Below, one piece after another: positions 30,542-60,960 of a stretch of DNA of 64,000 nucleotides. The DNA is from Candidatus Woesearchaeota archaeon (lineage in GTDB: Archaea > Nanobdellota > Nanobdellia > Woesearchaeales > GCA-2686295), in contig JABMPT010000003.1 of the NCBI GenBank assembly GCA_013202845.1, forward strand, positions 1-64,000, written 5' to 3'. The notes under the pieces were generated by a model that made no database searches, had not been told where the DNA came from, and saw only the letters and a list, made by a program, of their open reading frames with translations. The position numbers and the translations under genes are program-made. Within the stretch, counting starts at the first letter, position 1. The number at the start of each line of letters is the position of its first letter.

Positions 30542-30862
30542 TCAAATACCCTCCTTAATATCTAACTGCGTATCATACTCTCGACTATACTTCTCTTTCA
30601 AAAGTTCATACTGATTGAAATCAGTTTTTTGTTTTTTAATAGATGCTTGTAACAACTGAAGTTTCAAACTTGTCTTTGAAAACTCTAAAAAATCTAGTTT
30701 ATTATAAAAAAGTGTTATAATCAAAATGCCCAGTAAAAAAATTGTAAGGGGATAAAAATTAGGTTTAGATTGCTCAGAAAATATGACAAAAAATAAAGAA
30801 GTACCAACTACAAAAAATGCTGCCAAAAAATAACTAAAAACAGACTCAAGTTGTGTTTTCAT
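30542..30862 (-). CDS. small two-TM plus coiled-coil protein
   Basis: Two hydrophobic helices then charged helix; start overlaps the stop of the R-M gene. Confidence 0.65.
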   Translation of the reverse strand: MKTQLESVFSYFLAAFFVVGTSLFFVIFSEQSKPNFYPLTIFLLGILIITLFYNKLDFLEFSKTSLKLQLLQASIKKQKTDFNQYELLKEKYSREYDTQLDIKEGI

Positions 30863-33800
30863 TTCAAACTCTCCTCAATAATCTTCTGTTCTTCTTTTGT
30901 TATTCCGTAAAGCTTGTAAACCATTTCATCTATTTCTCTATCTGTTTTATCAACTTCTGATTTTATGTTTAGAATTTTTTTCTTTTCAGTTTCAAATAAA
31001 TCCATAAGTTCGTACTCTTCCTTTTTTGTAAAATTTATGTTTTGTTTTTTTAATTCTTTTATAAAATCATTGTATGAGAGAAAATAAAATTTCTTTAATT
31101 TACTAGATGTTTTTTGTAAATTATATTGAGATTTTATAAATCTAATAAATTTACTTATATTCGTCTGAAGTTTTTTGTTAGTTTCAAGCATAATATCTGC
31201 TTTTTTAATAAAATGCTTTTGTTGAGTGGGAGAGATATTTGCTATAGAGAAGTCTTTAAAGTCTTTTAAACTAAAGGCTGGAAAATCATCTCTTTGAAGT
31301 GATGTATTAAAATTAACTTGACAAAAACTAAATAATTTACTGTTTAAGACAGTTAATATGTATTTTAAATCATAGTTTTTATCATTGTCATAAATAGCGT
31401 ATAGATTTTTTTTAAATGCGAAGCTTTCATTAACATAGGTCAAATTCATTCTAAACTGTCTGCTTATTAATTGCCTTGCTAATATTTTTTCAGATTGAAA
31501 TAGTTTAAGAGGTTTATTCTCTCTCAAAGTATCATAATTAACATAATAGTCAGTCTCATCTTCCTTTATGGTTGTATATCTAAAAATTTGGTCATTAAAC
31601 CACTTAATATTATGATGCTTATCTTTTATTTCAGATATTTCATCAGGTTTAGGAGGCAAGCTGCCTCTATTAATCCTTGCTATTTTATTTAATTTTATAT
31701 TCTTTTTTGAGAACCAAACCTTCTCGCCAGTTTTTAGAATCGAATCATTTAAGAATATTTTGCCATATTCAATCCATGTTTTTTTATTGAACTTCTTAAA
31801 TAAATCAATATCTATCTTACCTTTAGGAGCCTTAATATCGAACTGGTAAGTTTCTACAAAATCATTATACTTTCCATTTTGAATAATAACAATTGAAGTG
31901 TCAATATAAGCTTCAAAAATATCGTAAGGTAGTTGTATTATATGAGTAAGGTTGTAGTGCTTTAACGCTTTATCCCGAAAAATGTTATAATTATCTCCTG
32001 CAAACCAAGTAATTGGAACTATTAATCCTAAATTTGAAGTAGATTTTAGTAATTGAAATGCTCTTTCAAAAAAGGCAATATAGGTATTATAATTTCCTTT
32101 TGTTAGAGCATAATTTTTTAGTACATCAGGAGATAATACTACATATGGCGGATTCCCAATAACTATATCAAACTTGAATGGAAATTCTTTCTCCCAATCA
32201 AAAGCATTTGGATCAACTTGCTCATCATCAATTAAAGAATTTCCACATTTTATCTTATCAGATAAATCTATTAGTTTTTTATTTTTCCTTACAATTTTCA
32301 AAAACAAGCTTAGTTTCGTTATTTCTACTGATTCTTCGTTTATATCTACTCCAAAAATATTTTTTTCAATTATTTCTCTTGCTTCATCTTCTTCATGCCA
32401 TTTAACAAGCATTAGTTGCCCTTCATCTTTCTTAACTTTTCTACCTTTTTTTATAGCAGTATATTCTCCTTTGTTCTGCTTAAATAGTTGTATCTCTTTA
32501 TGTATTTCCAATAAAACATCTACTGCTTTTATTAAGAATGCTCCGCTACCACATGCAGGGTCTATTATCTTCAAGTCTGAAAACTTTTTTTCAAGTTCTT
32601 TGATATTATTTGCATATTCTAAAACCAGTTCTCTGGGTGTTTTTGCATTTTTCTTAGACAAATAAGGAATTATTGTATTTCTACAAATGTAATCAGTTAT
32701 ATATTCTGGCGTGTAAAATATTCCTTCTTTTTTTCTTTTTGAAGTTGTTCCTTCTTTTAACTCTTCTAAATCAGTAAGTGATTGTTCAAATATGTGACCT
32801 AGAATATTCACGCTAACTTCTGTATTAAAATCAAAAGAAGCCATTAACAAAAGATTCTTAATTATTGGACTTAATCTGTTTTTATACTTATTAAATATTT
32901 CTTGTTCTTTTTCATTTAATTTCAGACTGTTATCTTTCAGTTTAGAATATTGATAAACGTCTTTGAAAAAACTTTCATTTCGAAAGTCGTTAAAATATAT
33001 TCTTGGAGGGATTGGATGTTTAAATAGACCTCCATTAAATCCGAATATCTTCACAGGAAAGTTAGTGCCAGTATTCAAATCCCTGAACAATCCTGCAATT
33101 AAATTAGATATATTATTGGAATTAGCTGAGAATGACTCAATATTTTCCAATGAGTTTAGTATTTTCTTTTCTAGTATTCTTTTCTCTAGTTTATCTGTGT
33201 CTTCAGCAAATAGTATAAACATAAGCCTATTAATAAATAATTGGCTAAAATGAAGAGCTGCTTCTTTTGAAATATCATTTTTTTGAAATTCTTTTAGCAA
33301 CATCAACCTTGTTTCATGGAATAACTTATAGAATTCTTTTGTAAAATTCTTTTCTTCTATTGCAGATTCTTCTTCTAGTTTTTCTATGAAGCCTTTATCT
33401 ATTATTTGTTCTTTTGAGAAAATAGCTATAAATTCTTTCAGTTTTTCTTCATTAGATCTTATCTCCTCAAAATCAAAGAAATGATATGCAGAAGTACCTT
33501 TGGAACGCTCTAAGAGAACAAACTCTTTGTAGTTTGTCGCAAAACCATAATCAAGATTTAAATCACCCATATATCTCCAAAGTTGGTGTATAGGCGTTCT
33601 TTGTCCTTCTCTATAACCTTTTTGTTCTGCAAACAAGTCTTTTGTTTTTGTTCCCTTGGCTTCAATTCCTAATACTGTTTTACCTTTTTTATTTTTGAAA
33701 GAGAACTCAATGTTTCCTTCTTCAAAAGACATATTTCTAATATCAAAACCTAGAAGCTCTTTTAATATAATCTCTCCAAATTTAAAGTAATTAAGTTTTT

Positions 33801-33930
33801 CTTGCTTTAATTTTCCTTCATTTAGCAAATATAACCAGTCTTTTGCAGCTCTTTTTTGCAAATGAGATAATTTAATCTTAGAACAAAGCCTTTTTACTGT
33901 TTTTGAGTTGAATAACTCTTTATCCCCCAT
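30859..33930 (-). CDS. type IIG-like (Eco57I-class) restriction-modification protein
   Basis: N-terminal LGIEAKGTK nuclease-like motif; EGIFYTPEYITDYI, IIDPACGSGAFLIKAVD, FDIVIGNPPYVVLS; C-terminal specificity-like region. Confidence 0.87.
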   Translation of the reverse strand: MGDKELFNSKTVKRLCSKIKLSHLQKRAAKDWLYLLNEGKLKQEKLNYFKFGEIILKELLGFDIRNMSFEEGNIEFSFKNKKGKTVLGIEAKGTKTKDLFAEQKGYREGQRTPIHQLWRYMGDLNLDYGFATNYKEFVLLERSKGTSAYHFFDFEEIRSNEEKLKEFIAIFSKEQIIDKGFIEKLEEESAIEEKNFTKEFYKLFHETRLMLLKEFQKNDISKEAALHFSQLFINRLMFILFAEDTDKLEKRILEKKILNSLENIESFSANSNNISNLIAGLFRDLNTGTNFPVKIFGFNGGLFKHPIPPRIYFNDFRNESFFKDVYQYSKLKDNSLKLNEKEQEIFNKYKNRLSPIIKNLLLMASFDFNTEVSVNILGHIFEQSLTDLEELKEGTTSKRKKEGIFYTPEYITDYICRNTIIPYLSKKNAKTPRELVLEYANNIKELEKKFSDLKIIDPACGSGAFLIKAVDVLLEIHKEIQLFKQNKGEYTAIKKGRKVKKDEGQLMLVKWHEEDEAREIIEKNIFGVDINEESVEITKLSLFLKIVRKNKKLIDLSDKIKCGNSLIDDEQVDPNAFDWEKEFPFKFDIVIGNPPYVVLSPDVLKNYALTKGNYNTYIAFFERAFQLLKSTSNLGLIVPITWFAGDNYNIFRDKALKHYNLTHIIQLPYDIFEAYIDTSIVIIQNGKYNDFVETYQFDIKAPKGKIDIDLFKKFNKKTWIEYGKIFLNDSILKTGEKVWFSKKNIKLNKIARINRGSLPPKPDEISEIKDKHHNIKWFNDQIFRYTTIKEDETDYYVNYDTLRENKPLKLFQSEKILARQLISRQFRMNLTYVNESFAFKKNLYAIYDNDKNYDLKYILTVLNSKLFSFCQVNFNTSLQRDDFPAFSLKDFKDFSIANISPTQQKHFIKKADIMLETNKKLQTNISKFIRFIKSQYNLQKTSSKLKKFYFLSYNDFIKELKKQNINFTKKEEYELMDLFETEKKKILNIKSEVDKTDREIDEMVYKLYGITKEEQKIIEESLK

Positions 33931-41497: not shown

Positions 41498-41929
41498 TTG
41501 GCTCTTACAAAAGCTGAGAAACGCAAGCTGAAAAAGCAGAAGAGATTAGAAGAGAAGAAACAAGCAGAATCAGCTAAAAAGAGTAAAAGCACTAAAAGAA
41601 ATATCATTATTATTGCTATTATTGTGCTTGTAGCTGCATATGCCATCTTTTCATTTTTCTCTAACAGTAACAATCCTGCTTATTATGATGACTTTGCTAA
41701 ATGTCTCACTGAAAAAGGACTGGTAGTTTATGGTGCTGAGTGGTGTACTTATACTGCTGGACAGAAAGAGATGTTTGGTAAATCATTCCAATACGTGAAC
41801 TACAAGGATTATGCTGAAACAACAGGTGTCACTACAACTCCTACTTGGGAGCTTGATGGTGAAAGATACCCTAAAGTTCAGACAATTGAGAGATTAAGCG
41901 AGATTTCTGGTTGTTCCTTGCCTGGTTAA
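41498..41929 (+). CDS. membrane-anchored thioredoxin-like protein with CxxT motif
   Basis: N-terminal TM; VVYGAEWCTYTAGQKEMFG, TTTPTWELDG; TTG start. Confidence 0.75.
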   Translation: MALTKAEKRKLKKQKRLEEKKQAESAKKSKSTKRNIIIIAIIVLVAAYAIFSFFSNSNNPAYYDDFAKCLTEKGLVVYGAEWCTYTAGQKEMFGKSFQYVNYKDYAETTGVTTTPTWELDGERYPKVQTIERLSEISGCSLPG

Positions 41930-59789: not shown

Positions 59790-59803
59790 AAAAAATTTAT
59801 ATA
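59790..59803 (+). promoter_or_regulatory. probable TATA box of the mini-pilin transcription unit
   Basis: AAAAAATTTATATAG about 50 nt upstream of the GAGGTGA SD and ATG 59847. Confidence 0.5.
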
Positions 59804-59846: not shown

Positions 59847-60095
59847 ATGTTCAAAAATAAGAAAGGACAAGGACTGAGCATAAATGTTATAATAATAGCT
59901 GCAATAGCATTATTAGTGCTTGTTATATTATCTGTTCTATTGTTAAGAAGTGGAGGAGAGCTAGTCGTTGATTGTAACGATGTAAACGGTGTATGCGTTG
60001 GAAACTGCGCAGATGCAGGAGAACTATACACAAGTTATTCAACTGCTAAATGCCCTCTTGAGGAACAAGTTTGTTGCATACCTATCAAAAAATGA
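59847..60095 (+). CDS. Cys-rich mini-pilin 1
   Basis: KKGQGLSINVIIIAAIALLVLVILSVLLLRSG + C-x6-C-x3-C-x14-C-x6-CC. Confidence 0.72.
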   Translation: MFKNKKGQGLSINVIIIAAIALLVLVILSVLLLRSGGELVVDCNDVNGVCVGNCADAGELYTSYSTAKCPLEEQVCCIPIKK

Positions 60096-60334
60096 TTAGA
60101 AGTAGAAAAGGACAAGGACTGAGCATAAACACCATAATTATAGCAGCGATTGGAATACTTGTTCTCGTAATACTAGCATTGCTTGTTGCAAGATCAGGCT
60201 CACATGTTTCTGATAACACAGAATGCATAAAAAAAGCGGCTGTATGTCAAAAAACTTGTGATGAAGATAAACAAGTTAGTACATACGCAGGAGAATTCTG
60301 TACTGGTAGTTTGTGGTGTTGTCGCCCTGTTTAG
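60092..60334 (+). CDS. Cys-rich mini-pilin 2
   Basis: RKGQGLSINTIIIAAIGILVLVILALLVARSG + C-x6-C-x3-C-x13-C-x5-CC; ATGA overlap. Confidence 0.72.
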   Translation: MIRSRKGQGLSINTIIIAAIGILVLVILALLVARSGSHVSDNTECIKKAAVCQKTCDEDKQVSTYAGEFCTGSLWCCRPV

Positions 60335-60338
60335 AAGA

Positions 60339-60686
60339 ATGACTGTCAAAAAGAAAGGACAGGGAAACATGACTTTTCCCCAATTCATAGGCGCATTTAT
60401 ACTTGTGCTGGTAGTTGCTTTTGGAATCGTTCTTGTGATGAAAAGCCTTAAACCTTCTCAGGAACTTAATAATTGCAAACCAACCTATGGAGATTGCATG
60501 ACTGCAGAGGATTGCAAGGATATAGGACAGGAATATCCTGGTAAAGAATGCGAAGAAGAAAGACATGTCTGCTGTTCAACAAGCGAAAACATTGCAGGAG
60601 TTGCTGAAGAACCAGAAGAGCCTGAAGAGGAGGAAACAGAGGAAGACGCACAAAAGTTCAATAACGAAGGAGATCAAAATGCTTAG
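60339..60686 (+). CDS. Cys-rich mini-pilin 3 with acidic C-terminal tail
   Basis: KKKGQGNMTFPQFIGAFILVLVVAFGIVLVMKS + C-x6-C-x5-C-x11-C-x6-CC. Confidence 0.7.
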   Translation: MTVKKKGQGNMTFPQFIGAFILVLVVAFGIVLVMKSLKPSQELNNCKPTYGDCMTAEDCKDIGQEYPGKECEEERHVCCSTSENIAGVAEEPEEPEEEETEEDAQKFNNEGDQNA

Positions 60687-60960
60687 AAAAAAAGGTACTT
60701 GGACATTCATGCAAGGAGCTCTCATGTTTGTTTTTATATTTTTAATAGCAAGCACAATATTTGCAAGACAATACGTGGATAAGACTGATGATGCTACAAG
60801 CTTCAGTGATTGTCAAAACATACCTGGAATAAAGAACGGAACTTGTGTAGCTAATGTCGCTGAATGCGATACCTTAAACGGATACAGTTATTCACCTGAC
60901 TCATTTGGATGTCCTACTAAATTAGAACCTGACAAGAAGATCTGTTGCACAATTTCTTAG
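60679..60960 (+). CDS. Cys-rich mini-pilin 4
   Basis: MLRKKGTWTFMQGALMFVFIFLIASTIFARQ + C-x10-C-x6-C-x14-C-x10-CC. Confidence 0.68.
   Translation: MLRKKGTWTFMQGALMFVFIFLIASTIFARQYVDKTDDATSFSDCQNIPGIKNGTCVANVAECDTLNGYSYSPDSFGCPTKLEPDKKICCTIS

Follow-up and report, generated by a model that had tools for sequence, protein, structure and literature searches.

Four tandem genes with a common architecture

The window analyzed here is a stretch of 64,000 nt from a contig of a Candidatus Woesearchaeota archaeon, the genome of which comprises 1.20 Mb on 14 contigs. Toward its end, the window contains four consecutive small genes, designated P1 to P4, which are embedded in a cluster of genes for class III-like surface proteins. 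The following features were assigned.

41968-64000, forward strand: cluster of class III-like surface proteins containing P1 to P4, from the list of open reading frames; it runs on beyond the window
59796-59803, forward strand: TATA box TTTATATA, from the sequence; 44 bases 5' of the P1 start codon
59834-59839, forward strand: Shine-Dalgarno (SD) motif GAGGTG, from the sequence; precedes P1
59847-60095, forward strand: P1, 82 amino acids (aa); helix KKG followed by QGLSINVIIIAAIALLVLVILSVLL, then a six-cysteine head with CC
59973-60077, forward strand: head module of P1, from the first cysteine to CC; C-x6-C-x3-C-x14-C-x6-CC
60092-60334, forward strand: P2, ATG start at 60092, 80 aa; C-x6-C-x3-C-x13-C-x5-CC
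60339-60686, forward strand: P3, 115 aa; C-x6-C-x5-C-x11-C-x6-CC, then an acidic tail of 36 aa
60679-60960, forward strand: P4, ATG start at 60679, not at 60565, 93 aa; C-x10-C-x6-C-x14-C-x10-CC

The four genes touch or overlap, with intergenic distances of -4, +4, and -8, and the start codon of P2 overlaps the stop codon of P1 as ATGA. Each gene encodes a short basic stretch, followed by a hydrophobic helix (KKGQGLSINVIIIAAIALLVLVILSVLL in P1) and a six-cysteine module that ends in CC. P2 is a paralogue of P1 with 44% identity, P3 is a paralogue with an acidic C-terminal tail, and P4 is a divergent paralogue. The cleavage motif is KKGQ or RKGQ in P1 to P3, and KKG without the glutamine in P4. 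An earlier, sequence-only reading had described four small tandem open reading frames with a class III-like helix and a six-cysteine module. The reading frames and the spacings bore this out, and the cysteine pattern given at the time covers all four spacings listed above. It was also correct that the proteins end close to the CC, namely 3-5 aa past it in P1, P2, and P4, with P3 and its tail as the exception. The TATA box and the strong SD motif that it had reported are present as well, specifically ahead of the first gene; both are absent in front of P2, P3, and P4.

The six-cysteine module is conserved and widespread

The cysteine pattern was found six times in the six-frame translation of the window, and four of these occurrences were P1 to P4, whereas each of 20 triplet shuffles contained zero or one occurrence. 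The architecture of the four-gene array is thus not due to chance. When a module profile was built from sequences outside the genus, P1, P3, P4, and P2 were the top four among all six-frame segments of the window, with E-values of 3e-9, 5e-6, 2e-5, and 0.002, respectively, and the next segment followed at 0.09. Because P4 was among these top four with a profile lacking the genus, it is a family member by sequence in spite of its divergence.

With P1 as the sole query, relatives were retrieved from 58 of 61 related genomes, and about 90 related proteins shared the architecture of P1 to P4. All six cysteines were invariant in a module alignment of 61 sequences; however, the rows had been selected with a pattern that demands six cysteines ending in CC, and therefore the independent tests are the genus-free profile and 28 further loci at the level of the order. 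These loci were chosen by the full-length family profile, and a few of them belong to genomes already counted. In 28 of 28 cases, the module directly followed the transmembrane helix. The cysteine spacing, a loss of which in orthologues had been regarded as a possible refutation of the earlier proposal, was conserved. Four further genomes of the genus have the gene order P1 to P4 as well. Across the phylum, 173 of 197 genomes gave a match to the family profile. Within the Woesearchaeales, the order of tiny uncultured archaea to which the window belongs, a hand count gave 117 matching genomes out of at least 126.

The idea that the module is confined to a single order had to be dropped, as 7 of 67 genomes from other orders also contain it, in most cases as part of a long frame (about 500-850 codons). 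Its occurrence inside long proteins indicates that it is a domain in its own right. In one locus of another order (L120) it was present in short pilins on another helix, and among the long proteins (L132-L139) it occurred twice in a single frame of 623 codons in genome G140 (L135, L139). Other orders of the class contain homologous pilins that have the same helix (QGLSMNVIIIAI...), larger heads, and another cysteine pattern, usually with C-x3-C first and no CC. The heads of these pilins (L096-L123) often include a DxDxDG-like stretch reminiscent of calcium-binding loops. As judged from these comparisons, exchanges of the head on a constant helix have played a part.

A probable resemblance of the heads to beta-defensins

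The module profile was compared with all PDB chains. The best match was TCI, a tick carboxypeptidase inhibitor (E 0.00096), which is itself an inhibitor with a beta-defensin fold. Further matches were the platypus defensin-like peptides (DLPs) DLP-1 (0.0066) and DLP-2 (0.009), gallinacin-11 (0.01), and human beta-defensin 3 (0.31). When the 61 members were compared one by one with the two beta-defensin models of Pfam, 9 matched one model and 6 the other, with a best value of 1.7e-5. As a control, the non-cysteine residues were shuffled within each of the 61 sequences (one shuffle set). The profile of these cysteine-preserving shuffles still matched TCI, at 0.0067, and two beta-defensins, at 0.32 and 0.91, more weakly than the real profile, and none of the 61 shuffled sequences matched the Pfam beta-defensin models. 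Therefore, the defensin match is carried partly by the cysteine spacing and for the rest by other residues.

Trans-defensins have a cysteine spacing of approximately C-x(4-8)-C-x(3-5)-C-x(9-13)-C-x(4-7)-CC, and the disulfides of beta-defensins connect C1-C5, C2-C4, and C3-C6. The modal spacing across the order was 6, 3 or 6, 11-12, and 5-6. P2 and P3 fit the trans-defensin spacing, P1 is off by one residue in the third loop, and P4 lies outside. A glycine two positions before the second cysteine (GxC) was present in 71 of 92 modules, 42 of which had GGxC, compared to a background glycine frequency of 14%.

An AlphaFold2 model of P1, calculated with 37 relatives, reached a pLDDT of 84. It contains a helix at residues 12-35 and strands at residues 49-51, 61-63, and 75-79, with the second cysteine in strand 1 and the CC in strand 3, which is the beta-defensin order. 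A Foldseek search of this model against the PDB yielded five matches. Four were small disulfide peptides, three of them of the beta-defensin type, and the top match was 1b8w (probability 0.60, TM 0.58 by target). The E-values were weak throughout, at best 0.9 (1b8w). The proposal of a common fold was thus upheld in part. The P1 model was good and supports a common predicted fold for P1-like heads, but the model of the P4 module was poor: it has three strands in corresponding places at a pLDDT of 68, its fold search gave no match, and neither did a PDB search with the single P4 sequence. Taken together, spacing, GxC motif, PDB profile matches, and predicted P1 fold all suggest a beta-defensin (trans-defensin) fold. 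The label "knottin-like", which the heads had been given at first, was abandoned, because the CC is at the end and not in the middle and because the 15 PDB matches, mostly beta-defensin-fold peptides, included no knottin. Toxin_12 was weakly matched by 4 of 61 members and also by 2 of 61 cysteine-preserving shuffles.

Two DsbA-like proteins are encoded in the genome, and such proteins were found in 18 of 21 genomes. VKOR, which was considered as the disulfide source, was present in 6 of the 21 genomes and missing from that of the window, where the DsbA-like proteins occur instead. The six cysteines might alternatively bind a metal or a cluster rather than form disulfides, as Zn or Fe-S binding is possible for cysteine-rich modules. 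We consider this extremely unlikely: a conserved CxxC pair is absent, the predicted location is extracytoplasmic, both the spacing and the GxC motif match a disulfide fold, the profile matches are disulfide-bonded peptides, and the distribution of DsbA-like proteins also argues for disulfides.

The net charge of the heads was quantified for 80 modules and was found to be negative, with a mean of -2.6 and a median of -3. This makes an antimicrobial role unlikely and bears on the possibility that the heads are defensin-like antimicrobial peptides (archaeocins), either membrane-anchored or released, in which the helix would be the anchor and the head the active part. The resemblance to beta-defensins would fit such peptides, as would small, tandemly duplicated genes with rapidly diverging downstream paralogues. 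However, defensins are typically cationic, the helix of the first genes is highly conserved, the genes belong to a cluster for class III-like surface proteins that recurs among loci, and they are present in nearly all genomes of the order; we therefore regard an antimicrobial function as very unlikely. Given the acidic heads, the deep archaeal distribution, and the fusion to pilins, convergence with animal beta-defensins is, in our view, likelier than common descent.

P1 to P4 resemble type IV pilins

Among the first genes of arrays throughout the order, the residue at position -1 was G or A in 27 of 28 cases, and that at position +1 was Q in 25 of 28. The genome of P1 to P4 encodes an A24 prepilin peptidase and T2SSE ATPases, with two loci that each contain T2SSE and two T2SSF domains. 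An assembly ATPase was not found within the examined cluster, and thus the tie to the pilus machinery is by presence in the genome only. None of the pilin or archaellin models of Pfam and NCBIfam matched P1 to P4, for which only sub-threshold matches, mostly driven by the helix, were obtained, including one weak sub-threshold "AtDEF-like" match of P3 (0.011). This agrees with the earlier reading, which had recognized no described pilin family with this module; because curated models cover only some archaeal pilins, the lack of a match limits the family name, not the class. By leader and machinery, P1 to P4 are type IV pilin-like as far as their sequences tell, and the head sets them apart as a new variant. 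The initial proposal of pilin-like proteins, encoded in tandem and having a disulfide-type head in common, is supported.

Expression signals and extensions suggest different subunit roles

In the arrays of the window and its relatives, a TATA motif was found upstream of 26 of 31 first genes, but only 1 of 61 downstream genes (Fisher p 8e-17), a contrast that is partly positional, since a TATA motif is likelier to occur in the intergenic region ahead of a first gene. AGGTG was found upstream of 26 of 31 first genes and 6 of 61 downstream genes (Fisher p 2e-12). The mean identity of the helices across the order was 60% for first genes and 20% for downstream genes. Because the TATA box and GAGGTG accompany P1-type genes almost exclusively across the order, we infer that P1 is the putative major subunit and that P2 to P4 are candidate minor subunits. 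The P1 type is order-wide and probably highly expressed.

In relatives, module-bearing genes located after P1, frequently the third gene, can reach lengths of 349, 467, 690, or 696 aa through extension. The module is at the N-terminal end in these proteins and the extension is C-terminal; no convincing Pfam domain was found in the long extensions. The acidic tail of P3, which the sequence-only reading had noted correctly, can now be described more precisely as a short form of a slot that holds up to hundreds of residues in relatives. This suggests a display or tip role for the extended slots.

The proteins could also form a non-filamentous, pseudopilin-like complex, that is, a short membrane pseudopilus or an anchor for the large cluster proteins, of a secretion or S-layer type. 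Many different class III-like proteins are encoded in one cluster, this cluster has no assembly ATPase, and long proteins share the helix-plus-head start. Nevertheless, the single uniform, highly conserved P1-type gene with its strong-expression signature fits a major filament subunit, and we judge a pseudopilin-like complex to be unlikely.

Genes in the neighborhood

An all-against-all comparison of 31 loci revealed families of neighboring genes that are shared by as many as 22 of them. The protein at the end of the cluster is encoded shortly beyond the window:

contig 64901-67240 (L023:8902-11241): SLT protein, 779 aa; class III-like N terminus, lytic transglycosylase domain SLT (E 3e-20)

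Homologues of this protein are located at the end of the cluster in many relatives. Eight of them were scanned; five contained SLT, one contained an M23 peptidase domain instead, and two contained neither (one of these has only 330 aa). Murein transglycosylases in Woesearchaeota have been reported previously and were read as predatory (PMC9723730). The filament with trans-defensin-like heads, the surface proteins, and the murein hydrolase (SLT or M23) might together constitute a contact device that attaches to and breaches the envelope of a host or prey cell, a speculative extension to which we assign only a small chance.

Several other genes were noted. The gene directly upstream of P1 (59323-59775) encodes another class III-like protein, which contains a FlgD_ig domain (E 2e-7, above the Pfam cut-off). 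A small open reading frame on the reverse strand (contig 64258-64755), which resembles a TnpA transposase of the IS200/IS605 type, is inserted in the cluster on the opposite strand. Just before the cluster (41498-41929), a membrane-anchored protein has a thioredoxin-like look with WCTYT, not CxxC; its assignment as a thioredoxin was rejected, as it had no thioredoxin Pfam match. A protein of 1023 aa encoded at 30859-33930 on the reverse strand has an NPPY methyltransferase motif and resembles a type IIG restriction-modification enzyme.

A model for filament assembly

In our judgment, P1 to P4 probably make up a surface filament of the archaeal type IV kind (class III signal) in Woesearchaeales, with P1 as the major subunit and with beta-defensin-like disulfide heads. 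Processing, assembly, formation and pairing of the disulfides, the major and minor roles, and adhesion are parts of this model that we infer. The prepilin peptidase would cut after K-G/A and before Q. The T2SSE ATPase and the T2SSF platform, encoded elsewhere, would then pull the hydrophobic N-terminal helices out of the membrane, and these would pack as the filament core. In each short subunit, only the head of about 40 aa would be exposed, and three disulfides would stabilize its beta-defensin-like, three-stranded fold. P1, which has a promoter of its own and a strong SD motif, would be the major subunit, and P2 to P4 would be translated downstream, partly coupled by the overlap, as minor subunits. 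The minor slots, often the third gene, may be C-terminally extended to display large domains, as an adhesin or a tip.

Woesearchaeota are abundant and mostly uncultured, and their means of contacting other cells are largely unknown; the order-wide pilin P1 is a concrete molecule to look for. The literature searched contained no account of comparable pilins in Woesearchaeota. The six-cysteine heads, with their likeness to animal beta-defensins in sequence and predicted fold, suggest a type of disulfide-hardened surface filament that has not been described before.

Comparison with known systems

P1 to P4 share several features with archaeal type IV pilins and archaellins (class III signal peptides, PilA families), namely the K-G/A-before-Q motif, the N-terminal hydrophobic helix, tandem genes located outside the ATPase operon, and a genome that also encodes ATPase, platform, and prepilin peptidase. 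In contrast to archaeal type IV pilins, the head comprises only about 40 aa, is predicted to be disulfide-based and beta-defensin-like, and the proteins match no Pfam pilin model. If true, this would clearly illustrate the small size that a pilin head can reach once disulfides take over from a hydrophobic core. A 2016 census of archaeal pili (Makarova et al., PMC4858521) mentions neither DPANN nor Woesearchaeota; conserved cysteines in some crenarchaeal pilus loci are described there, but, in its accessible part, no six-cysteine CC module.

With the trans-defensins (beta-defensins, big defensins, DLPs, and TCI), the heads share a cysteine spacing of about C-x6-C-x3-5-C-x9-13-C-x4-7-CC, the GxC before the second cysteine, and the order of secondary structure elements in the P1 model; trans-defensins were also the best PDB matches, both in the profile search and in the weaker fold comparison. 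Unlike animal trans-defensins, the archaeal heads are fused to a pilin helix and are acidic, and the likeness is known here from sequence and model. In big defensins, a hydrophobic N-terminal region drives assembly, according to the accessible part of one study (PMC6805989).

The bacterial cis-defensins (PMC11561630) are likewise small prokaryotic peptides with three disulfides that have been named defensins, and the word archaea is absent from that report. They are, however, of the CS-alpha-beta cis type, whereas the Woesearchaeal signature is of the trans type. If true, the beta-defensin-like pilin head would be, as far as the searched literature shows, the first trans-defensin-type module from prokaryotes.
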